Shown here in pieces: positions 2,899-21,259 of a stretch of 24,167 nucleotides of DNA. The DNA comes from a virus: positions 1 to 24,167 of the IMG/VR virus record IMGVR_UViG_3300049736_000026; one strand, 5' to 3'. The position numbers and the translations under genes are program-made. Positions within the stretch are counted from its first letter, which is position 1; each line of letters begins with the position of its first letter. Under the pieces are notes generated by a model. That model searched no databases and was not told the DNA's origin. It saw nothing but the letters and a program-made list of their open reading frames with translations.

Positions 2899-4353
2899 AT
2901 GATGCAAGGTATTCAGGCACTAGGACCAGGTGTAGCAGAAAAAATGGCTGCTATGGGTCAGTTCGAAGACGATCAAATCGCTCACGTTGCCGAGGGCGAA
3001 GTGATTGTTCCTGCTCCAATCCTGAAATATTACCCTGAAGTCAAAGAGCAGGTTTTTGCCGCGATTAGAGACCAGGGCCTAGAGCCAGAGCAGTTTATGG
3101 TCGGTAGCGAGATGGTCGCCATCAACCCCAACACTGGCGTTCAAGAGTTTGGGTTCTTCAAAAAACTCTTTAAGAAGATTAAAAAGGTTGTAAAGAAAGC
3201 CGCTCCGCTTTTACTCGCCGCTGCTTTGCCGGGTGTTGGCACTTTTCTTGCCGCAAAAGGCGGTATGCTCGGTATGCTGGGTAAAGGTATTGGTACGTTG
3301 ACGGCCGGTAAAGCTGGTCTGCTTGGTACGTCCGCTGCGTTAGACGCAGCATTTAAGGGCGGCAACCTAAGAGATGTTATGAAGGCCGGTGCAACCGGTG
3401 CCGCTGTTGGGGGAATTACACAAGGTATTTCTAACCAGATAACTGGGAAATCTGGTGGTTACTTTACTCCAGCCACCCCTGCCCCCAACCCGACGGTAGA
3501 CGCAATCAATCAAGGCAGACAGCAAGCCGCTGTTTCTACGGCGAAAGGTAAACAAGTTGCTGACGCTTCTGGTGCAACTGGTACAATGACCGATGCGACA
3601 TCTTTTGACCAGGCTGTTAAAGAGCAAGTGGGTGGAAACATGGGTACCTCACCAACAGTGGGGACGGCACCCACCTCTGGTAGTGGCGGTATTACAGACC
3701 TACCCCCATCCACACAATTACAGGGTGATATTCGTAACGTGAGACTCGGTGACGGTGCTACTTTGTCAGACCTACCCAGCACAGAGAACCTGTATCCGAG
3801 TCCAACTGAGGTTGTCTTTCCGGGCGGTGGACCGCGTATAGGACCCACCGTTCAAGCAGCAGAAGCTGGCACCCTGGGCCCTGCCCCTAGCCCTGGCTTT
3901 TTCGAAAAAATTGCTACCGAGTTTAAGGAGAATCCGCTTCCCGCGATAGGTACGGCTCTCAGCACTGCTTCTCTTGCTGCGCCATTGTTTATGGAACAAG
4001 AAATGCCGGAGCAATCTAGCATGTCTCTCAACCAAGAAGAGTTAGCGGCACTCTTAAACCAGGGAGACATCCTGAATTATCAAGGCAGGCCCATTCAAGG
4101 TATGTATTACAATCCTGAAACAGAATCGTTTCAGGATGTACCATACGTGCAAAGTAGTGGTATAATGACAGCGGCTCATGGTGGACACATCATGGGTCCC
4201 GGAACAGGGACCTCGGATAGCATCCCTGCATATCTGTCTGACGGTGAGTTCGTTATGACAGCAGACGCAGTTAAAGGCGCAGGTGACGGTAGCCGTAAAA
4301 AGGGTGCCGCTAAAATGTACGCCATGATGAACAAGTTTGAAGGACAAGCATAA
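2899..4353 (+). CDS. Probable internal virion / DNA-ejection protein with membrane-active segment
   Basis: 484 residues. The start has an AAGGGA ribosome site four bases upstream; the adjacent ATG at 2902 is an alternative. Residues 20-80 hold the module IAHVAEGEVIVP and NPNTGVQEFGF. A very basic Lys/Phe stretch (86-100, FFKKLFKKIKKVVKK) follows, then a long Ala/Gly/Leu hydrophobic region (about 101-150), which looks membrane-active. The middle is low-complexity Pro/Thr/Gly. The C-terminus (about 425-484) has GGHIMGPGTGTSDSIP, DGEFVM and GAAKMYAMMNKFEG, a tail I recognise from marine podovirus virion proteins. It is the first of four consecutive genes that resemble the T7 gp14-16 or P22 gp7/20/16 sets in position. 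Function is inferred from context. Confidence 0.55.
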   Translation: MMQGIQALGPGVAEKMAAMGQFEDDQIAHVAEGEVIVPAPILKYYPEVKEQVFAAIRDQGLEPEQFMVGSEMVAINPNTGVQEFGFFKKLFKKIKKVVKKAAPLLLAAALPGVGTFLAAKGGMLGMLGKGIGTLTAGKAGLLGTSAALDAAFKGGNLRDVMKAGATGAAVGGITQGISNQITGKSGGYFTPATPAPNPTVDAINQGRQQAAVSTAKGKQVADASGATGTMTDATSFDQAVKEQVGGNMGTSPTVGTAPTSGSGGITDLPPSTQLQGDIRNVRLGDGATLSDLPSTENLYPSPTEVVFPGGGPRIGPTVQAAEAGTLGPAPSPGFFEKIATEFKENPLPAIGTALSTASLAAPLFMEQEMPEQSSMSLNQEELAALLNQGDILNYQGRPIQGMYYNPETESFQDVPYVQSSGIMTAAHGGHIMGPGTGTSDSIPAYLSDGEFVMTADAVKGAGDGSRKKGAAKMYAMMNKFEGQA

Positions 4354-11502: not shown

Positions 11503-11952
11503 ATGACACCATCTTCATTGGAGGTCCATACCGGAGACATCGGAGAAGCATTGTGCCTCTACCGTCTTCGGCAAATGAATGTTCCGTGTGAGGTCGTGCA
11601 ACTCGGAACCACTGACATCATTGCTATGGTCGGTATAAAACCCGTTCGCATTCAGGTTAAGACATCTCGTACTGTATATGAGGGGGCTAGAGCAAAGAAG
11701 GATGGCGGTAAGAAATATCCTATACGAGCCACCTATCACTTCTCGGTAGCCAAGGGCAGCAAAACAAAAGTCGCCCTCACCGAAGCTGATTGCGATATAC
11801 TAGCCCTTGTTGGTCTCGACCACGAGGGCGTTTTATTTTTACCAATGTCCGGGGTGCGACACCAAAAGACAAAGCGTGTACCGGCCGCTGATTATCTAGA
11901 CCCGGAACTCGCAGCTTGTAGCTGGAACAAGGCTGTCAGAAAGCTGTACTAA
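11503..11952 (+). CDS. PD-(D/E)XK-type endonuclease, Holliday-resolvase-like
   Basis: 149 residues. The ATG follows the preceding TAG with no gap and no ribosome site, so it is probably translated by reinitiation. The nuclease core is visible: GDIGEALCLYRL with the helix-1 acid E15, D38 in the strand TTDIIA, and RIQVKTS giving Q51-V52-K53, the E...D...(Q/E)xK pattern of the PD-(D/E)XK superfamily (PDDEXK_5-like and archaeal resolvase-like proteins). It likely cuts branched or host DNA during replication or packaging. The substrate is not deducible. The stop TAA overlaps the stop of the convergent gene on the other strand. Confidence 0.7.
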   Translation: MTPSSLEVHTGDIGEALCLYRLRQMNVPCEVVQLGTTDIIAMVGIKPVRIQVKTSRTVYEGARAKKDGGKKYPIRATYHFSVAKGSKTKVALTEADCDILALVGLDHEGVLFLPMSGVRHQKTKRVPAADYLDPELAACSWNKAVRKLY

Positions 11953-12467
11953 GAGTTTTTCTTTTCGAAGAACATTGCCATTGTGAAGCGAAAGTCGGGG
12001 CAAGCTGTGCTCGGTGCGCGTAGCGAATGAGGTACACCCTCGTCCATCCAAAGCACCCGACCCGACTTAAACTCAATGGCTGTATCTACCGTCATGTCGT
12101 CATTAAAGATCATGGTCTCTCCCGCCCATTCGGGTAGCCACCGCACATTGGCGTAGTACACCATGCTTTCTTCTCGCTGATGCGTATGCGGGTAATACAC
12201 GTTGCCCGGGTAAGACAGGTTAATTGTGGTCTTAGTAGGCCATCGTCCGTCAATTTTATCCAACAATTTTTGAGACGTAATATTCTCAAAAAACTCCAGC
12301 CTTCTTATGTCGTCATCGCTGTAGTGACTTGCCATGTTTCGAAACAAGCCGCTTATTTCTTCGGGGCGGTCAACCCAGCCCACGTTGAAGTTACTATGAA
12401 GCACAAAATCATACATGCGCTCTATTTCTCCGGCCGGTATTCCACCGTCAATTATCTCGTATCTCAT
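11949..12467 (-). CDS. 2OG-Fe(II) oxygenase (prolyl-hydroxylase-like), second of a tandem pair
   Basis: 172 residues from the ATG at 12467, which overlaps the upstream stop (ATGA) and follows a GAGGAAA ribosome site. The in-frame ATG at 12512 would add 15 residues lying inside the neighbouring gene. The double-stranded beta-helix core is recognisable: PHTHQREES at 93-101, WLPEWAGETMIF at 110-121, GRVLWMDEGVPHSLRAP at 136-152 with the distal ligand H147, and R160 in FRFTMAMFF as the likely 2-oxoglutarate clamp. The first metal motif reads H94-T-H96 instead of the usual HxD/E, so the iron geometry may differ, or it may belong to the branch using HxH. Substrate unknown. It is last in the replication operon. 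Confidence 0.75.
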   Translation of the reverse strand: MRYEIIDGGIPAGEIERMYDFVLHSNFNVGWVDRPEEISGLFRNMASHYSDDDIRRLEFFENITSQKLLDKIDGRWPTKTTINLSYPGNVYYPHTHQREESMVYYANVRWLPEWAGETMIFNDDMTVDTAIEFKSGRVLWMDEGVPHSLRAPSTACPDFRFTMAMFFEKKNS

Positions 12468-12964
12468 TTGTTTTCCTCGTGTAACTGCGCTGTCGTGGGA
12501 GGATTTCTCCAACCATTAATTAAAAATGCGTGGCGTTCTCCCGACCAAATCCCTGAGACCCGGTGCCAGACACCTGGGTCTAGGACCACGCATCTATTGA
12601 ATCGTGGGGCTATACGCTCTACCTCTGTCCGTGTTTCGTCCGCAGTTTGAATTTCTAGAAACCCACCCCACAAAGAGTGTTCTGTTGAATATAAAACGCA
12701 AGACCAATCCGCCGGAACAAACTTCCCGTTTAATCCCTTTTCTTCGTCCTTGTCGAAATGCCAGCTATTTACGTGTTCATGATGGCAAATATTGTACCAA
12801 TACTCAAAACCACACATTCCTTCTGGTTGAAAGTAATCTACACAAAACTCAATCACATCGTGAGCAGGTTCACTTTTAGTGACACCGTCCCACCACCTTA
12901 TGTTTTCAAAATGCTTCACATGATTAGTGAGGTGACTAGGTAAAAAATCGTCTAGCAAAATCAT
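12464..12964 (-). CDS. 2OG-Fe(II) oxygenase, first of a tandem pair
   Basis: 166 residues, beginning two bases after the polymerase stop. All expected active-site elements are visible: WHFDKDE with H69 and D71 (HxD), a WGGFLEIQ strand at 99-106, DPGVWHRVSG with distal H134, and R144 in SGERHAFLING as the 2-oxoglutarate-binding residue. The family hydroxylates protein side chains, nucleobases or small molecules using Fe(II), O2 and 2-oxoglutarate. Phage members occur widely in marine phages and most lack a known substrate. Co-transcription with DNA polymerase makes nucleic acid or a replication protein a candidate, which is inference. It differs strongly in sequence from the neighbouring oxygenase, so a recent duplication is unlikely. 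Confidence 0.8.
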   Translation of the reverse strand: MILLDDFLPSHLTNHVKHFENIRWWDGVTKSEPAHDVIEFCVDYFQPEGMCGFEYWYNICHHEHVNSWHFDKDEEKGLNGKFVPADWSCVLYSTEHSLWGGFLEIQTADETRTEVERIAPRFNRCVVLDPGVWHRVSGIWSGERHAFLINGWRNPPTTAQLHEENK

Positions 12965-12966
12965 TG

Positions 12967-14892
12967 TTATTCAATTTCGCCCCAGTTGTCGCCTAACGCG
13001 AAGTCAATCTTAAATGGTACCAAAGCTGGTATGCATGTTTCCATGATTTCTTTAATTTTGTTTGCTTGACTTTCGCTCTCTATATTGAAGCACAGTTCAT
13101 CATGCACTGTGAGTAGGGGAGTGAACCCCTCTTTGTAGCAGTCCACCATTGCACGTTTCATTTGGTCAGCACTCGACCCTTGTATCAACCGGTTGAGAGC
13201 CTTGTATGTGTAGGCACGTTTCAGCGATTCTTTCGGGCCGTGCTCACGTCGGGCATCTTCGAACGGCAGCGCACGATGCAGGCCATAACGCTTCGGCTCC
13301 CATTTATCAAAGCGGCATCGTCGGCCAAGCACTGTTCGAACAACCCCGTTGGTTTCTGCTGCTCGAGACACAGCATCAGCAAGTCCTTTGACAAACGGAA
13401 CCTTGGAGTTGTAATCGCCCAGCAAGTCTTTGGCTTCGTTCTTTTCGATATCCAAAACACCAGCCAGCTTGTTGATGCCCATGCCGTACATGATGCCGAG
13501 GTTCACGGTCTTGGCATCCTTACGGGAGATGCCTGCCATGTCCGCCACCATCTGGTGAAAGTCTGCGTCATCTTCTTCGTACTTATCAATTACTTCTTGA
13601 ATCATCGGGTGCTTCCTTGCGCCCGATAGCGACCCAGCGTAGTGCGCCAGCCATCGCGGTTCTTGTGACGCGTAGTCAAAGCTGCCCCATTTATTACCCT
13701 CATCGGGAACAAACAATCCTCGAATAGCTTTTTTAATCTGTGGGTCACGAGCCGGTATCTGCTGGAGATTAGGGTTGGAGGAAGAGAACCGGCCCGTTAC
13801 CGTGCCGCCATCATCCGAGCGGAGGGGGTGAAACTCTGCGTGAATGCGACCCTTGTGAGAGAACTTGAAGATGTTCTCGATGAATGTCGTATTCGCTTTG
13901 TTGAACTCTCGCATACGTAATATAGACTGCGCGACAGGGTGCTCATGGGCTGCAAGAAATTGCTTCGTGAAACTCGGAGCTTCTTTTGCTGTTCGCGGAT
14001 AGTCGAGGCCGAGCTTGTCGAACGCTTTAGCCAGAGAGGCTGCTGCCCAAGGCTCAACCTGAAACCCTACCGTCTCTTCGATTTTCTGGTGCAGCCTGTT
14101 CTCTTCGCTGTTTAGATAGTCACGAGCCTTCTGCGCTCCTTCGAGATCCACCTTCACACCGTTCCAACGCATGTCGAGCAGTAGAGGCGTTAGGTCAGTT
14201 TCCATTTCGAAGATCTGTGACACCTCATCTTTCACCAGTTCTGGCTTCAGCCTGTTCCACAAACGCAGTGTAATATCCGCGTCCTGTTCAGCGTACCGAC
14301 CAACAAAGCGAGAGGGCAAACGCCACATCTCTGCCTTCGGGTCAAAGCCATAGTCCATGGCAGCGGCGCGAAGTGTCTTCTCACTTTTACCCTCGCCCAA
14401 ATAATCAATCGTCAAAGAGTTTAGATTGTACCAGCGGCGGTTCTCGTCCAGCATCGCAGCCGCGGTCATTGTATCGTAAACCCTGCCGTTAACTTTGACA
14501 CCTGCCCAGCGCAACCAGCCCAGATCGTATTGAGCATTGTGCATCACCTTCGGCACATCGGTCTCACAGACTTTCTTAACGAAAGCCATGACAGACTTCT
14601 CTGGCATGTTCCCACCACCCTCGTGGCGAATAGGGAAGTATCCGGTGAAGTCACCGTAGGCAATAGCAATCCCACAAATAAAGCCATCATTACGAGCCCA
14701 GCCTGGCCCCATGGTCATCAGGTTTGGATCAGAGGTCTCTAAGTCGATCGATATAATCTTGGCTTCTTCATAGCCTCGTGGGAACCCAGCAGGTGGTGAC
14801 CAGTCTTGGTCGAGCGCACCGTAGGCAACGTCTTTGATATCACTGTCTTGTACGTCTTGGAGCTTTTGAAAAAAGCCTAGCTGTCCGGTCAT
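12967..14892 (-). CDS. polA: Family A DNA polymerase (Pol I-like) with 3'-5' exonuclease
   Basis: 641 residues from the ATG at 14892 that overlaps the helicase stop (ATGA), with GGAGA upstream; an ATG at 14907 would add five residues. The proofreading domain is intact: IDLET (D50, E52), HNAQYD (N119, D123) and YAEQD (Y200, D204). The polymerase motifs are complete: GRFSSSNPNLQQIP, motif A DYASQEPR (D406, E411), motif B from R457 through K461 to Y469 (RKDAKTVNLGIMYG), and motif C VHDE (597-600). The O-helix residue equivalent to E. coli Phe762 is Leu465, a variant common in virioplankton and linked in the literature to slower or temperate replication. No 5' nuclease domain or fused DnaJ-like domain is present. 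This is the replicative polymerase of the phage. Confidence 0.95.
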   Translation of the reverse strand: MTGQLGFFQKLQDVQDSDIKDVAYGALDQDWSPPAGFPRGYEEAKIISIDLETSDPNLMTMGPGWARNDGFICGIAIAYGDFTGYFPIRHEGGGNMPEKSVMAFVKKVCETDVPKVMHNAQYDLGWLRWAGVKVNGRVYDTMTAAAMLDENRRWYNLNSLTIDYLGEGKSEKTLRAAAMDYGFDPKAEMWRLPSRFVGRYAEQDADITLRLWNRLKPELVKDEVSQIFEMETDLTPLLLDMRWNGVKVDLEGAQKARDYLNSEENRLHQKIEETVGFQVEPWAAASLAKAFDKLGLDYPRTAKEAPSFTKQFLAAHEHPVAQSILRMREFNKANTTFIENIFKFSHKGRIHAEFHPLRSDDGGTVTGRFSSSNPNLQQIPARDPQIKKAIRGLFVPDEGNKWGSFDYASQEPRWLAHYAGSLSGARKHPMIQEVIDKYEEDDADFHQMVADMAGISRKDAKTVNLGIMYGMGINKLAGVLDIEKNEAKDLLGDYNSKVPFVKGLADAVSRAAETNGVVRTVLGRRCRFDKWEPKRYGLHRALPFEDARREHGPKESLKRAYTYKALNRLIQGSSADQMKRAMVDCYKEGFTPLLTVHDELCFNIESESQANKIKEIMETCIPALVPFKIDFALGDNWGEIE

Positions 14893-16415
14893 ACTTGGAA
14901 TCTCCATCTTCCGCGACCTTCAATCAGGTGAAGGTTGTGCTTGGCACGTGTCATGCCCACATAAAAAGTTCGTATCTCACTGTCGGGGTCATTCATTGTC
15001 TGGCAGGCGCGAGACGTTTCGAGCATTAAAGCCACGTTGTCTGCTTCGCCGCCTTTTGCTTTGTGAATAGTGGACAGCTTAATACGAGGGTTTTCAGAGT
15101 CAAACTTCTCCCCTGCCCGAAGTACGGACTGGATATAGATGCGGTCATTATCTGGAATACGGAGAACGTCGAACCACTGCTTGGGTTCGCCGAACAAATC
15201 TTCTGTCTGTTCCATAAGCCGTTGGACATCCGACATGGAGACAACATCTTCATTGATCATGCTGTCTATGTGCTTGTCGCCCTGACGACGTATGCGCTTT
15301 TCAATATCCATAAAAGCCCACATGTTCTTAAACTCATCACGTCCCAGACTAGAGCCAGTCGTTAACCTTGTCCATCCCCTTGTTGCGTCTATGATTTTTT
15401 GGGATACGCTAAACCCGGAGCCTTGTCGGAAGAACAAAAGCCCCATCTCTTTCATGCGAGAGGCGACCTGATTAGCGATATAGTTAGTGCGGCACAGCAC
15501 TAGCCACTGGCCTTGAGAGAGGTCAAGCTCATCTAAATTGAAGTGCCAATTGATCGTCCCTTTACGTTCGGTTGGCTCCCACTGCTTGTATACACGATCT
15601 GCTACACGACTAATCAAGCGGCCCGAAACTAGATGCACATCAAAAGGAACACGGTAACTTTGCTTCAATACCGTTGCGTTTTCGCAACGCCCTTTGAAAT
15701 CTTCTGGGTCTACGCCCATCCACTCGTAGATGCACTGGTCGTCATCCCCGGCATACACTACTTCTCGCGTGTTCTTTGCCAGCTTATCAACCATCTCCCA
15801 CTGCAAAGGAACCAAGTCTTGTGCTTCATCAACAATCAATAGGTCGAGGTCAGGGCAATCGCCGCGGTCAACGAACCCTTCGATCATGTCGGTAAAATCA
15901 ATCTTACCTAATTCTTCTTTGTAGTCTTGAAGCCCTTTGTTGATTATCTCAAGCTGGCGGTAATCTAGGTTGGCATAGTTAGTTCTGGCGAACTGGCGAT
16001 AAGGAGACACGCGTCTGACACGAGCCATGTTTATAATAGACAGGTACACATCTCCCGGCGCACCCATGCGAAAGAACTCTCCGTCGTTCATGCTCATACT
16101 TTTTGTAGAACGAAACTCTACGCCAAGTAGCTCCTCTAGCCGCTTGTAGTCAGAAGCTGCCAGGACATCTTTAGTGCTAAGTCTAAGCTGATGAAACGCC
16201 AACGAATGAAGCGTACGGAAGTATGGCATTGATTTTATTTCCAACCCCAACTCAGAAGCTGCACGAGTACGCGCTTCCTCCGCTGCCTTTTTGCTGAACG
16301 ATACAAACGCGATACGCTCCGGTGCTACGCCCTCACGCAAGCGTTCCTTGACCAAGTTGATTAGTGTATACGTCTTGCCGGTGCCGGGTGGTCCAAGTAT
16401 TGCTCTAGGCTCCAT
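14889..16415 (-). CDS. Superfamily 1 UvrD/Rep-type DNA helicase
   Basis: 508 residues from the ATG at 16415, which shares its A with the preceding stop (TAATG) and follows GGAGGAAG. A longer frame reaching 16502 would cover the upstream gene and is rejected. Helicase motifs in order: GPPGTGKT (8-15), motif Ia region FVSFSKKAAEEA, TLHSLAF (68-74), DEAQD (196-200), YAGDDDQ (221-227), QSYR (252-255), STIHKAKGGEAD (448-459) and YVGMTRAK (485-492). It should be a 3'-5' ATP-driven ssDNA translocase, serving as fork helicase or recombination helicase. At 508 residues it is shorter than UvrD (about 720), with reduced 1B/2B insertions. It overlaps the polymerase gene by four bases, suggesting they act together. 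Confidence 0.93.
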   Translation of the reverse strand: MEPRAILGPPGTGKTYTLINLVKERLREGVAPERIAFVSFSKKAAEEARTRAASELGLEIKSMPYFRTLHSLAFHQLRLSTKDVLAASDYKRLEELLGVEFRSTKSMSMNDGEFFRMGAPGDVYLSIINMARVRRVSPYRQFARTNYANLDYRQLEIINKGLQDYKEELGKIDFTDMIEGFVDRGDCPDLDLLIVDEAQDLVPLQWEMVDKLAKNTREVVYAGDDDQCIYEWMGVDPEDFKGRCENATVLKQSYRVPFDVHLVSGRLISRVADRVYKQWEPTERKGTINWHFNLDELDLSQGQWLVLCRTNYIANQVASRMKEMGLLFFRQGSGFSVSQKIIDATRGWTRLTTGSSLGRDEFKNMWAFMDIEKRIRRQGDKHIDSMINEDVVSMSDVQRLMEQTEDLFGEPKQWFDVLRIPDNDRIYIQSVLRAGEKFDSENPRIKLSTIHKAKGGEADNVALMLETSRACQTMNDPDSEIRTFYVGMTRAKHNLHLIEGRGRWRFQV

Positions 16416-16642
16416 TATTCTTCCTCCGGTAGATCGAGAACAAAGATCGGAGTTGTTGTACCCACGTATGATCCGAGTACGTTGTAGTGAAAGTGCTCCC
16501 ACGCTTCTTCTTCGGTCATCTCATCTTGATCGATGAACGTGTTAACCACGCGCACAGCGTCGTAAACATATACGTCTTCGAAACCGCAGCGAGATCCAAT
16601 GCCGATAATTGCTTCGTCAAATTCTGAAGGTAATTTCATCAT
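16415..16642 (-). CDS. Small acidic protein between primase and helicase, unknown
   Basis: 75 residues. The start ATG overlaps the primase stop (TGATG at 16640-16644); the next ATG at 16639 is an alternative, and a TTG at 16645 is less likely. The product is acidic, ends in LDLPEEE and has a likely helix DEMTEEEAWEHFHYNVLGSY. There is no membrane segment, Cys cluster or recognised domain. Its position, coupled at both ends to replication genes, suggests an accessory factor of primase or helicase. This is context only. Confidence 0.75.
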   Translation of the reverse strand: MMKLPSEFDEAIIGIGSRCGFEDVYVYDAVRVVNTFIDQDEMTEEEAWEHFHYNVLGSYVGTTTPIFVLDLPEEE

Positions 16643-18168
16643 CAAAACGGTGTCTCCTCTCCACGTACATCGGGTTGCGGTATGTCAGGCTCCATGCCAA
16701 ACTCTGGTATCGACCAGACACGAATAACTTTGGACTTGCCTTTAGTGTCGGCAAAGCGGCGAGACTCACTGGCACTCTTGCCGCTGTTCAGTTCCTTCAG
16801 CCGCTCCTGTATCTGACCACGAGTGTACGCACTAAAGTTCTTAGCGCGTAGGAACTCCATGAAGGAGTCGAGGCGGAAGTATGTGCGACCCTCTTCTGTC
16901 CATGGCTTGCCCAGCATAAGTTCCTCGGCAGACTGTGCTTGCACACGGCCGTTGCAAAAGCTTTCAAGCATGTCCACAAACTGGCCTTTGTAGGTCAACT
17001 CTTCCGGCACTTCGATCACAACCATCTGCTGCATCAAACCATTAACAGCCATCTCCCAGTCGCTCTTCTTAATTTCCGGGGGCATAAAGTTTAGTTGCTC
17101 CATGCAGGCACGTTGAAACCGTTGGAACATCTGTAGCTCTTCTGTGCTGACCTCAATACGTCCGCCGTTTACATCAACAAACCAGACACGCGGATCGGAC
17201 TCGACAACCGAGAGACCCGTGACTTCTACAGAAGTGCCGCCGCCGATACCAAACTCACAACGCCGACACGCCGCCTTATCGCAATGATCTTTGAACGGTG
17301 ACTGATTGCACATATAAAAATATTCTTTGCGGTCAATAGACTGCTGTATGGATACAACTTCCGACGCAGACAGCGGCGGATTGCAATATGATTGATTATC
17401 TTTTTCTAGCTGCTGCTGCCATCCTGTCGGATCTTGCTGCTTGCGATAGATAGCCATCTGCGTCATGGCGAGATTACGCTCACCGGAGCCGAAGGACTTC
17501 AAGGCAAGTATAAGCAGGCACGGCGGTGCTCCGGGCAGGTCGGTGGTGCTGTCAGCTAACTCTATGGATAAAAACTTATTGGGTGTTACGGCAATCTTTT
17601 CAGCTTTGTCGAGAAACTCTTCCAAAGAAAGCTCGTTACCCTTCGCGTCAAGCGCAGGACGAGTCGTAAGATCAGCATCAAAATACGGAAGGTTGATGAA
17701 GTTACCGACATCACCACGCTCAACAAGAAGCTGCTCTTGCTTCGGAAAGATTTCACTGCCGCCATGTCCCAGTATGGCTGCAACCTCTGATAGCTTGTCG
17801 CGCATATCCGCCGCAGAAACCCAACCTTTGATAAAGAAATATATGTGAGCTCCACCAGACTTACTACGGCAAACAATAGCAGGAAGCTTAAGAGAAGCAC
17901 ACTGCCGAGCAATAGCGTCGAGATCGAGTGGATAAACGTCCACATCAATAACGCCAAAACGACAATCGTTTCTTTCGGTGATAGGGATAGATCCGACACC
18001 CTGCTCTCCGTCCAAGTGTTTCTGTACTAAGGCCTCTGTAAGTGGCTCTCTAATTATACGCGATTTGGCCTCTTGTTTGCCACCGCGTCGAGAATCCGAA
18101 ATTGTTGTCTGTCCATGCGCTGCACTGAAACCTTCAAATACAGCCATGAACCTTTTGGTAATGTCCAT
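16642..18168 (-). CDS. Archaeo-eukaryotic-type (AEP) primase, TOTE-like
   Basis: 508 residues, GAGGG ribosome site just upstream of the ATG at 18168. The catalytic core of the AEP superfamily is visible: FGVIDVD with D75 and D77 (DxD), SKSGGAHIYFF with H108 (sxH motif), and EIFPKQEQ at 139-146 followed by NFINLPYF, a pattern I associate with the TOTE-type AEP branch. Residues 215-285 look like a helical PriCT-type segment (GSGERNLAMTQMAIY). A four-Cys cluster follows (C287, C296, C301, C304), probably a zinc or Fe-S site. No helicase domain is fused; the C-terminal 180 residues are unrecognised. It would make primers for the polymerase at 12967. It replaces the DnaG/TOPRIM primase of T7-like phages. 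Confidence 0.8.
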   Translation of the reverse strand: MDITKRFMAVFEGFSAAHGQTTISDSRRGGKQEAKSRIIREPLTEALVQKHLDGEQGVGSIPITERNDCRFGVIDVDVYPLDLDAIARQCASLKLPAIVCRSKSGGAHIYFFIKGWVSAADMRDKLSEVAAILGHGGSEIFPKQEQLLVERGDVGNFINLPYFDADLTTRPALDAKGNELSLEEFLDKAEKIAVTPNKFLSIELADSTTDLPGAPPCLLILALKSFGSGERNLAMTQMAIYRKQQDPTGWQQQLEKDNQSYCNPPLSASEVVSIQQSIDRKEYFYMCNQSPFKDHCDKAACRRCEFGIGGGTSVEVTGLSVVESDPRVWFVDVNGGRIEVSTEELQMFQRFQRACMEQLNFMPPEIKKSDWEMAVNGLMQQMVVIEVPEELTYKGQFVDMLESFCNGRVQAQSAEELMLGKPWTEEGRTYFRLDSFMEFLRAKNFSAYTRGQIQERLKELNSGKSASESRRFADTKGKSKVIRVWSIPEFGMEPDIPQPDVRGEETPF

Positions 18169-18179
18169 GTCACCCTCTT

Positions 18180-18222
18180 AAAAAATACGAGGTGTGCTCC
18201 CTCTTCCTCGAAGTAGCACACC
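18180..18222 (-). terminator. Hairpin plus T6 run between SSB and primase genes (terminator or attenuator)
   Basis: On the minus strand the stem GGTGTGCT (18222-18215) pairs perfectly with AGCACACC (18198-18191) around a 16-base loop that itself can form a small CTTC/GAAG helix. Five bases later come six consecutive T residues (18185-18180), just before the primase ribosome site. This resembles a Rho-independent terminator inside the operon and would reduce read-through from the abundant SSB transcript into the primase. Confidence 0.6.
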
Positions 18223-18232
18223 CCGCACCACA

Positions 18233-19039
18233 CTAGAACGGCAAGTCGTCAGACTCAATAGTCTTAGCTTCTGCCGTGTCTAAATCTGGATCTTGTGCTG
18301 CCTTAACTTCACCGGCGGTGACCATTCTAGCAAAGTCCTTCGCCTTCTCGTACAAGGAAGGGTCTTCCACATATCCAGCTTTGCCGACAATCTTCCATGA
18401 CTGCCAGCTACCCATGTCATTAGATCGCTCATCCGTTGACATGTTCCATACGATGCCAAAGGACGGAACCTTGAAGGACTTGTCACCCTTCTTAATTTCC
18501 TGCATCGCAATCATTGTGTTCCATTGACGGGACACTTTAAGGTTCGAGGATTTCATATCCAAGATAGCGGTTTGCCAACTGCCGCTTGTCGGATCTTGGA
18601 TCATGACGTAGTGCTGTGCGGACACAACAAGCTCGTTGCCGTTTGGCAGCATCTCTTTGTTGCCTTCACGTTTCGCATTCAACACGCCTGGATCGTTCGG
18701 TGACAGTTCGCCATGGAACCCGCCGCCTTCGTCGTATGGAGTAAACTCCAAGTACTTTTTAACGAAACCACACGCGATGATGTTCACACCATCTTCGGCC
18801 TTCCACACCTGGCGGGTGACGGTATTGAATATGTCACCTTGCTCGGCACCTTCAATAAACTTCTCGTTCTTCTTTTTCAGTTCCGGCGACACCGGCTGAA
18901 GAACACGCAAGAACGGGATTTGCAAATCATCCTGCGTAAAGTTTTCGGTACCTGCGCCAGCATCCTCTAGGAAGGTATCCAGCATTGCGGCTGGAAGCTG
19001 CGCTTCTGCTTTTTTAGTTACTGCTTTAGTTTCACTCAT
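18233..19039 (-). CDS. Probable phage single-stranded DNA-binding protein
   Basis: 268 residues, beginning eight bases after the preceding stop, with only a weak purine-rich site upstream. Residues 35-60 contain FTQDDLQIPFLRVLQPVSPEL, then GDIFNTVTRQVW, then a beta-rich body (YVMIQDPTSGSWQTAILDM, PSFGIVWNMS). This matches by eye a phage family found beside replication genes. The C-terminus is acidic and ends in SDDLPF, the same kind of tail that bacterial SSB and T7 gp2.5 use to recruit partner proteins. An OB-fold is expected but not provable by eye. Role: coating of ssDNA during replication and recombination. The following hairpin may keep this gene expressed above the downstream enzymes. 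Confidence 0.65.
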   Translation of the reverse strand: MSETKAVTKKAEAQLPAAMLDTFLEDAGAGTENFTQDDLQIPFLRVLQPVSPELKKKNEKFIEGAEQGDIFNTVTRQVWKAEDGVNIIACGFVKKYLEFTPYDEGGGFHGELSPNDPGVLNAKREGNKEMLPNGNELVVSAQHYVMIQDPTSGSWQTAILDMKSSNLKVSRQWNTMIAMQEIKKGDKSFKVPSFGIVWNMSTDERSNDMGSWQSWKIVGKAGYVEDPSLYEKAKDFARMVTAGEVKAAQDPDLDTAEAKTIESDDLPF

Positions 19040-19047
19040 TTTAGTTT

Positions 19048-19608
19048 CTACTTTCGTTTGATTTTAGCTTCAGTTCCGACATAAGCCCCGAACATGTCGA
19101 GGTCTAATTCGGTTCCCGTACCCAGCTTGTCTTTAATCCAAGCTTTCAAAGTGGACGGGTGGACACTCTTTCGATTGTCCGGATCGAGACCCTGCCTCAT
19201 GCAGTCGTCTACAAATGCACCGGCTTGGTTATCTTGTCCGCGGCCGAAGGAAACCTTGACCTCGTTCTTGATAATATCGTCCTCGCCAATGCTGCGGAGG
19301 AAGTTAAACGCTTCCTCCTTTCTAGCTTCGGGGATTGAGGCGTACACGAACTGGTTCAGTGAAACGGAGTTACCGTCCACATCGACACGATCCATGCCCA
19401 TCTCTATCATCTCTGCTGGAATTAGTTCGCGGGTGATACGTTGAAATTCTTTCTTCGCATCTTTCGCCGCTTGCTCGTGCTGCTCTTGCAGGCTTTGCTG
19501 CTGTTGAGCTTCACGAATGAGATTGGATAGCTTTGATCCGCTCTCGGTAGTGACAGTGTCAAACGCTTCTGCGTCTGCTGCCATCTGATCGAATAGGCCA
19601 TTACTCAT
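19048..19608 (-). CDS. Phage replication-module protein, unknown role
   Basis: 186 residues, first gene of the minus operon, AAGGAAG ribosome site upstream. The N-terminal half (25-65) is a Gln/Glu/Lys-rich coiled coil. The second half has the pattern VYASIPEARKEEAFNFLR (88-105), IIKNEVKVSFGRG (110-122), HPSTLKAWIKD and a final MFGAYVGTEAKIK. I recognise this pattern as a widespread phage family that sits beside SSB-like genes, but I know of no established activity. The coiled coil followed by a compact domain recalls Gam-type DNA-end binders in layout only. As the leader gene it should be among the earliest products. Confidence 0.65.
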   Translation of the reverse strand: MSNGLFDQMAADAEAFDTVTTESGSKLSNLIREAQQQQSLQEQHEQAAKDAKKEFQRITRELIPAEMIEMGMDRVDVDGNSVSLNQFVYASIPEARKEEAFNFLRSIGEDDIIKNEVKVSFGRGQDNQAGAFVDDCMRQGLDPDNRKSVHPSTLKAWIKDKLGTGTELDLDMFGAYVGTEAKIKRK

Positions 19609-19673
19609 TTGGCTTCCTTTCTACTCTCTACTTCTCCGCTTAGAGCCCGTCGGCTTTGATGTAGACAGTTCGT

Positions 19674-19687
19674 CCCAGCTAGTTGGG
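19674..19687. promoter_or_regulatory. 14-base imperfect palindrome in the leader of the minus operon
   Basis: CCCAGCTAGTTGGG matches its own complement at 12 of 14 positions and is centred on CTAG. It lies in the presumed 5' leader of the replication operon. In RNA the mismatches become G-U pairs, so it could be an operator or a small hairpin. No regulator is identified. Confidence 0.3.
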
Positions 19688-19714
19688 AGTTAGAGGGAGG
19701 GTTCCTATCGCTGG

Positions 19715-19743
19715 CGGTGATAAGTGATCTATCGATCGCACCG
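19715..19743. promoter_or_regulatory. Inverted repeat CGGTG-N19-CACCG abutting the plus -35 box
   Basis: Five-base arms at 19715-19719 and 19739-19743 end exactly where the TTGACG -35 box of the rightward promoter begins, and lie just downstream of the leftward start point. A dimeric regulator here could activate one direction and block the other. The arms are short, so chance is possible. Confidence 0.35.
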
Positions 19744-19772
19744 TTGACGAACCATCTACTATGTCCTATATA
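19744..19772 (+). promoter_or_regulatory. Sigma70-like promoter for the SNF2 gene
   Basis: TTGACG at 19744-19749, spacer of exactly 17, TATATA at 19767-19772. The expected start is near 19779, leaving a leader of about 38 bases. It shares its -10 with the opposing promoter. Confidence 0.7.
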
Positions 19773-19795
19773 AATTGGGATAACTTAAACGTCAA
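19767..19795 (-). promoter_or_regulatory. Sigma70-like promoter for the replication operon
   Basis: On the minus strand TTGACG (19795-19790), spacer of exactly 17, TATATA (19772-19767). The -10 is the same palindromic hexamer used rightward, so the element is symmetric about 19769/19770. The leader to the first gene at 19608 is about 150 bases. Confidence 0.7.
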
Positions 19796-19816: not shown

Positions 19817-21259
19817 ATGTACGAATATAAGACTGAACCATACGACCATCAGCGTGATGCGTTCGAGACAAGTAAGGACACCCTAAACTACGCATACTTC
19901 ATGGAGATGGGCTGCGGTAAATCCAAAGTCCTCATCGACAACATGGCGTACCTTTACGAGAACGGTGAGATCGACACCGCTGTTATCGTGGCACCGAAGG
20001 GCGTATACCGGAACTGGGTGCTGAAAGAAATACCCATTCATCTGCCAGAACGAATCGATCACCGAGTGTTTACTTGGAGGGCATCGCCAAACAAAGCGCA
20101 GAAGAAAGAGTTGGAAGAAGCTACCGTCATCGGTGGGCATGACGGGCTCCGCATCTTGGTTGTAAACGTAGAAGCATTCGCTACCGAAAAGGTCATGCGC
20201 TATCTTAGAACATTTCTAAAAGATAGCTACTTCCTCTTGGCGGTAGACGAAAGCACTACAATCAAAAATCCGAAGGCCAAACGCACCAAGCAGCTTACGG
20301 CCGTGGGCAAGGCGGCTACATACAAGCGCATTCTGACAGGGTCGCCTGTAACTAAATCACCCATGGATCTATATGCACAATGCACCTTTCTCAACCCAGA
20401 CCTTTTGGGGTTCAGTAATTTCTACGCATACCAAAACCGTTACGCTGTAACACGTCGCCAACGAATGGGTGCTCACACCTTCGAGCAAATCATTGGCTAC
20501 AGGAACATGCCAGAACTAGCGGACAAACTTCGCGGGTTCTCCAATCGTGTTCTAAAGAAAGACTGCTTAGACCTGCCTGATAAAACATACTCCGCACGAC
20601 ATGTGTCTTTGTCACCCGAACAGGCCAAGCACTACGTCACGCTCAAGAACTATGCGCTGGCTATATTGGATGAAGGGCAGGTCACTGCTCCACAAGTCAT
20701 GACGCAACTGGTGCGACTTCAACAACTACTATGCGGCTACCTCGTGACCGACGACGATGAAGTAGTGGAGATACCCAACCGCCGCATGGACGCGCTGATG
20801 GACACGATTGAAGAGATGGACGGTAAGATAATTATCTGGTCACGTTTCCGAAACGACATAAAACGAATCACTGAAGCATTGAAGAAAAAGTACGGCGAGG
20901 ACTCCGCAGGGTGCTACTTCGGCGACACGACAGACGACGAGCGCGAAAAGTTGGTTGAAAACTTTAGTGACCCGGAACACGAAACTCGGTTCTTCATTGG
21001 TAATCCGCAAACGGCCGGATACGGCCTGACGCTGGTCAGTGCCAGCAACGTTATCTACTACGCCAACGACTTCAACCTTGAAACACGGGTGCAGTCGGAA
21101 GACCGTTGTCACAGGATTGGTCAGACAAAAGCAGTGACGTATGTAGACCTCATTGCAGAAGGCACGGTGGACGAACATATTGTGAAGACACTAACAAAAA
21201 AGATTGATCTAGCTGGCGCAGCACTAGGCGAAGAAGTTAGAGAATGGTTGAAATTGTAG
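19817..21259 (+). CDS. SNF2-family (SWI2/SNF2-like) DNA-dependent ATPase/helicase
   Basis: 480 residues. The upstream sequence has only a weak GGA, so initiation may be modest. RecA-like lobe 1: YDHQRDAF (9-16, Q-motif-like), MGCGKSK (31-37, Walker A), VIVAPKGVYRNW, DEST (144-147, Walker B/motif II, in place of DEAH), LTGSP (173-177). Lobe 2: IIIWSRFRNDI, YFGDTTDDERE, TAGYGLTLVSAS (399-410) and QSEDRCHRIGQ (426-436) with the arginine finger. This is the phage SNF2-like group that acts as a dsDNA translocase in replication, recombination or protein displacement. It is divergent from the replication operon and shares its control region, so the two are probably expressed together or exclusively. 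Confidence 0.92.
   Translation: MYEYKTEPYDHQRDAFETSKDTLNYAYFMEMGCGKSKVLIDNMAYLYENGEIDTAVIVAPKGVYRNWVLKEIPIHLPERIDHRVFTWRASPNKAQKKELEEATVIGGHDGLRILVVNVEAFATEKVMRYLRTFLKDSYFLLAVDESTTIKNPKAKRTKQLTAVGKAATYKRILTGSPVTKSPMDLYAQCTFLNPDLLGFSNFYAYQNRYAVTRRQRMGAHTFEQIIGYRNMPELADKLRGFSNRVLKKDCLDLPDKTYSARHVSLSPEQAKHYVTLKNYALAILDEGQVTAPQVMTQLVRLQQLLCGYLVTDDDEVVEIPNRRMDALMDTIEEMDGKIIIWSRFRNDIKRITEALKKKYGEDSAGCYFGDTTDDEREKLVENFSDPEHETRFFIGNPQTAGYGLTLVSASNVIYYANDFNLETRVQSEDRCHRIGQTKAVTYVDLIAEGTVDEHIVKTLTKKIDLAGAALGEEVREWLKL

Follow-up and report, generated by a model that had tools for sequence, protein, structure and literature searches.

A probable bidirectional sigma70-type promoter built on one palindromic -10 between the replication operon and an SNF2 gene in a clade of marine phages

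The DNA analysed here (the window) is a stretch of 24,167 nucleotides from an IMG/VR virus record, the left half of which carries virion, tail and lysis genes. A 208-bp gap separates two divergent sets of genes: a leftward operon that opens with a phrog_2378 gene and continues through replication functions, and a rightward set led by an SNF2-related gene, downstream of which lie rightward genes for proteins without a named function (Table 1). The two units seem to encode functions that the lytic cycle requires jointly, and their gene content alone would suggest early timing for both. Two overlapping leftward ORFs (11949-12512 and 12464-12964) both match phrog_274 (DNA endonuclease V), as a duplicated or frame-split gene.

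Table 1. Features of the divergent locus, in window coordinates.
Feature	Position	Strand	Basis or remark
Remaining leftward operon: Pam3 gp34-like protein, AEP-type (archaeo-eukaryotic-type) primase, UvrD-like helicase, family A DNA polymerase with 3'-5' exonuclease domain	12967..19039	-	
First leftward gene: phrog_2378, Pam3 gp33-like (DUF7307)	19048..19608	-	
Small hairpin AGCC-GACG-GGCU, 5' of the phrog_2378 gene	19644..19655	-	compensatory changes in relatives
Predicted 5'-terminal leader RNA structure: 14-bp closing stem (19746-19759 / 19661-19674) and two inner hairpins	19661..19759	-	z about -2.3 to -2.7
Inverted repeat CGGTG-N19-CACCG	19715-19719 / 19739-19743		
-35 TTGACG, rightward promoter	19744..19749	+	sequence, consensus rank, core identical across clade members
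Predicted leftward start (A)	19760	-	spacing; 14-bp leader stem starts at +2
Rightward -10 hexamer CTATAT	19766-19771	+	
Shared palindromic -10 TATATA	19767..19772	no strand	sequence, consensus rank, kept in clade
Leftward -10 hexamer TTATAT	19773-19768	-	
Predicted rightward start	19779..19780	+	spacing alone, 7-8 bp past the -10
-35 TTGACG, leftward promoter (CGTCAA on +)	19790..19795	-	TTGAC core kept in L096, L004, L003, L089, L309
First rightward gene: SNF2-related ATPase/helicase	19817..21259	+	

Within this gap, a 52-mer (19744-19795) reads TTGACG-N17-TATATA-N17-CGTCAA; direct inspection of the sequence found the boxes and the 17-base spacers exactly where the original prediction had placed them. 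The 52-mer is present once in the window, and its layout appeared in none of 100 dinucleotide shuffles of the window. Because TATATA is its own reverse complement and lies 17 bp from a TTGACG on either side, the -10 is usable on both strands, and the two predicted starts fall 19-20 bp apart on opposite strands.

The sigma70 consensus of the alphaproteobacterium S. meliloti is CTTGAC-N17-CTATAT (PMC2873474). In a blind scan of both strands of the whole window with this consensus, which may not be that of the host, the rightward half of the element was the top site in the 24 kb (11/12) and the leftward half was joint second (10/12), each with the exact N17 spacing. The window contains four sites of this kind, against a mean of 2.6 in shuffled sequence (range 0-5), so that the striking point is not the number of sites but the coincidence of the two top ones on a single -10. 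On both strands a G, not the consensus C, precedes TTGAC. Measured against the E. coli -10, TATATA matches at 4/6 positions and misses the -7T, and a standard E. coli-type promoter scan of the window did not list the symmetric site, as TATATA does not end in the T of TATAAT. The proposed -10 therefore holds as a good hexamer by the alphaproteobacterial-type consensus only, and is a poor one by that of E. coli. Unlike the alphaproteobacterial promoters that it resembles, the phage element would be used in both directions at once. The type of -10 and kinship with Pelagibacter phages, which are among the named relatives, point tentatively to an alphaproteobacterial host. A more distant relative was found in a Maricaulis MAG. 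One near-identical contig belongs to a MAG with the label Gammaproteobacteria, which may be a matter of binning.

Searches with both flanking proteins gathered 82 divergent loci (the window itself and repeat entries of one contig included) and 75 collinear ones, which we reduced to 20 distinct intergenic regions (groups) and 32 groups, respectively; direct DNA relatives of the window were not found among named phages. The divergent loci show three layouts. In class A (the window, L003, L089, L096, L004 and, from a MAG, L309), TTGAC and GTCAA are 42 bp apart with TATATA exactly central, and all 16 core bases are unchanged in the five relatives. In L004 this full conservation of the core coexists with identity to the window at only 16 of 36 spacer and 18 of 60 flanking positions. 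All clade members examined carry the element in the intergenic region between phrog_2378 (-) and SNF2 (+). Class B (L097, L098, L099, L005) has 26 bp between the boxes, and a hexamer 17 bp downstream of each box (weak in L005) almost abuts the opposite box; in L097, for example, TTGACT-N17-TATCCC is set against TTGACA-N17-TATACG. The named phage 023Pt_psg01 has a class B-like arrangement with 27 bp when its sequence is read directly, and blind scoring did not recover its rightward half. Class D (L107, L109, L111, L133, L156, L167 and others) has boxes 50-52 bp apart and two separate -10 hexamers, and its leftward TTGAC lies within the conserved first codons of SNF2 (MKVNY or similar).

Opposing TTGAC..GTCAA boxes 20-60 bp apart were present in 16 of the 20 divergent groups and in none of the 32 collinear ones, a comparison for which the Fisher value is indicative only, since the groups are related by descent, and in which part of the 16/20 could reflect protein constraint on the SNF2 codons of class D. 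When class D is set aside, the boxes are found in 7/7 divergent groups against 0/32 collinear ones. It had been anticipated that relatives keeping both genes would keep both -35 boxes, and this held for those 16 groups; in 4 of the 20, an exact box is missing on one side. The symmetric 52-base layout was proposed as a feature to look for among related phages, but as a general property it did not survive, being confined to one clade while other relatives have gaps of 26-27 or 50-52 bp. What stays nearly constant in the sister lineages, as the gap between boxes varies (42, 26-27, 50-52 bp), is the distance from the -35 to a -10-like hexamer, mostly 16-18 bp. Rightward promoter matches in the relatives and in the window score equal to or above the leftward ones.

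In a tree of phrog_2378 proteins, class A forms one clade (99/96) nested with class B in a larger clade (100/99). The members of class B do not form a single group of their own; class D occupies one side of the tree and the collinear loci another. Given this topology, the shared -10 is best read as one derived solution that probably arose from a pre-existing overlapping pair of promoters, a direction of change that we infer from a tree rooted at its midpoint.

Among IMG/VR contigs, 14 carry the exact 18/18 layout, 6 of them from the window's clade, and the distinct 18/18 sites outside the clade number seven. A control 19/17 layout, which can match either strand, hit 10 contigs; with counts this close, viruses in general show no enrichment of the layout, and we rejected that idea. 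The spacing table of a wide-gap IMG/VR scan covers only a sample of its matches. Nor is the layout common in alphaproteobacterial genomes: TTGAC-N(15-21)-TATATA-N(15-21)-GTCAA, over all 49 spacings, gave 2 matches in 385 genomes. On the strength of this low count, the shuffles, the promoter ranking and the conservation of the core, we rejected a chance origin of the symmetric layout at the locus. Two of the seven sites outside the clade, in unrelated viral contigs, have the symmetric layout between divergent ORFs (L083:5083-5134 and L086:4032-4083), with CTTGAC-N17-(C/G)TATAT matched on both strands, and may be independent inventions. The leftward ORF of L086 is Arc-like, and a DnaB-like helicase gene lies further along; the 428-aa ORF of L086 matched only its own contig among viral contigs, and no relative of either region turned up among named phages.

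The leftward start gains partial independent support from a predicted leader RNA. In an RNA beginning at 19760, a 14-bp stem would start at +2 and enclose a pair of hairpins, one of them formed by the CGGTG-N19-CACCG repeat. The window, L096 and L097 are each predicted to have a 13-14-bp helix from +2 (p <= 0.003 each), which was found in none of L098, L099, L005 and L004. Relative to the window, the L096 helix replaces two wobble pairs by Watson-Crick pairs and loses one pair, and that of L097, a locus of class B geometry, is unrelated in sequence. No Rfam match of note was obtained for the leader. The CGGTG repeat had been suggested as the site of a regulator; a 5-bp inverted repeat is by itself weak evidence, this one is absent in L004 and altered in L096, and we set the operator aside in favour of a hairpin in the predicted leftward leader.

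Closer to the phrog_2378 gene, class A, most of class B and the collinear relatives retain a 4-bp hairpin whose loop is GACG/GAAG and whose stem varies by compensatory changes (AGCC/GGCU, ACCC/GGGU, UCCC/GGGA, UGCC/GGCA). This hairpin has no match in Rfam and is a possible translational operator. In collinear relatives the hairpin is followed by UAAACUUU, and in class D (e.g. L107, L109, L167) a conserved AACCTGAAGAGGA leader stands in its place just 5' of the phrog_2378 gene. On the contig of L004 (L082, about 3510-3860), three tandem hairpins of this kind and an additional small ORF, the start of which resembles a signal peptide, separate the symmetric promoter from the phrog_2378 gene.

We consider it likely that the element is a genuine bidirectional sigma70-type promoter. 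The proposal of one shared -10 serving the replication operon leftward and the SNF2 ATPase rightward is supported by the exact match, the consensus rank and the opposing boxes in relatives. Host RNA polymerase holoenzyme would bind the single TATATA one way round or the other, with the near-consensus TTGACG that it faces as its anchor, and would initiate near 19760 on the replication operon with its structured leader or near 19779-19780 on the SNF2 gene. Since there is room for one polymerase at a time, the two units would share and compete for initiation, with polymerases alternating between directions and no sign of a latch. Mutual exclusion should follow sterically, and an exclusive choice between directions is sterically plausible. 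A further idea, which we hold as tentative and rather unlikely, is that mutual occlusion is itself selected: the pair would have been rebuilt in no fewer than three geometries (42, 26-27, 50-52 bp) with overlap kept, and the ratio of the replication operon to the SNF2-led unit would be fixed by competition for one polymerase site.

Three other readings were weighed. A phage or host regulator could bias the orientation of the polymerase so that the units are expressed alternatively, as in lambda-like or pLS20-like switches; the promoters of classes A and B do overlap fully, overlap persists through changed geometry as if occlusion were useful, and in E. coli strengthening one side represses the other (PMC12825309). 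However, no regulator gene or family was recognised among the flanking proteins, the candidate operator is explained by leader RNA structure and is not kept among relatives, and the functions on the two sides appear to be required together, so that a regulated either/or switch is unsupported and we regard it as improbable. It is more doubtful still that a single direction, probably leftward, is active, with the other box as decoration or a relic. The leader RNA backs the leftward start, and the distant relative DSL-LC04, by reading, appears to carry a leftward promoter only (TTGCAA-N17-TACACT), but both TTGAC cores survive though everything around them has changed, rightward matches score at least as well, and the SNF2 gene has no other evident promoter. 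A palindrome adjoining replication genes in AT-rich DNA might also be an inverted-repeat operator or a replication-origin element, which we find scarcely credible: a variable gap between boxes combined with a steady 16-18 bp from TTGAC to the TATA-like hexamer suits sigma70 rather than a dimer site.

The bidirectional promoter that we favour has close parallels in the bacterial shared -10 promoters of Warman, Grainger and colleagues (PMC12825309, PMC10268837), in which one -10 is read on both strands between opposed -35s and divergent genes, two polymerases exclude each other sterically, and starts lie about 18-20 bp apart, close to the separation predicted in the phage. In E. coli, the starts are mostly 18 bp apart, with 10 and 23 also common (PMC12825309, PMC10268837). 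A separation of about 7-25 bp would be expected of this kind of promoter. The present case differs in being a phage element whose -10 is a perfect even palindrome with 17/17 spacing, in a register other than the usual A-N3-T core. The five E. coli bidirectional promoters tested had basal activity too low for competition, which was measured at strengthened bidirectional promoters, where an improved -35 on one side represses the RNA of the other (PMC12825309); in contrast, the -35s of the phage element, which is known from sequence, both match the consensus at 5/6 positions, and with two near-consensus -35s it would be expected in the competitive range. The overlapping promoters of genetic switches, for example those of pLS20 (PMC4207663), are likewise divergent and mutually occluding, but no regulator or operator was found in the phage, and the functions on either side look cooperative rather than alternative.

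The marine phage element thus appears to be a clean, conserved and comparatively well-supported example of an already known kind of promoter. It offers an unusually clean natural test case, with two near-consensus -35s around a perfectly palindromic -10, in the range of strength where the E. coli work predicts polymerase competition, and its relatives are a ready series of geometries with which to ask whether selection maintains sharing, occlusion or mere compactness.
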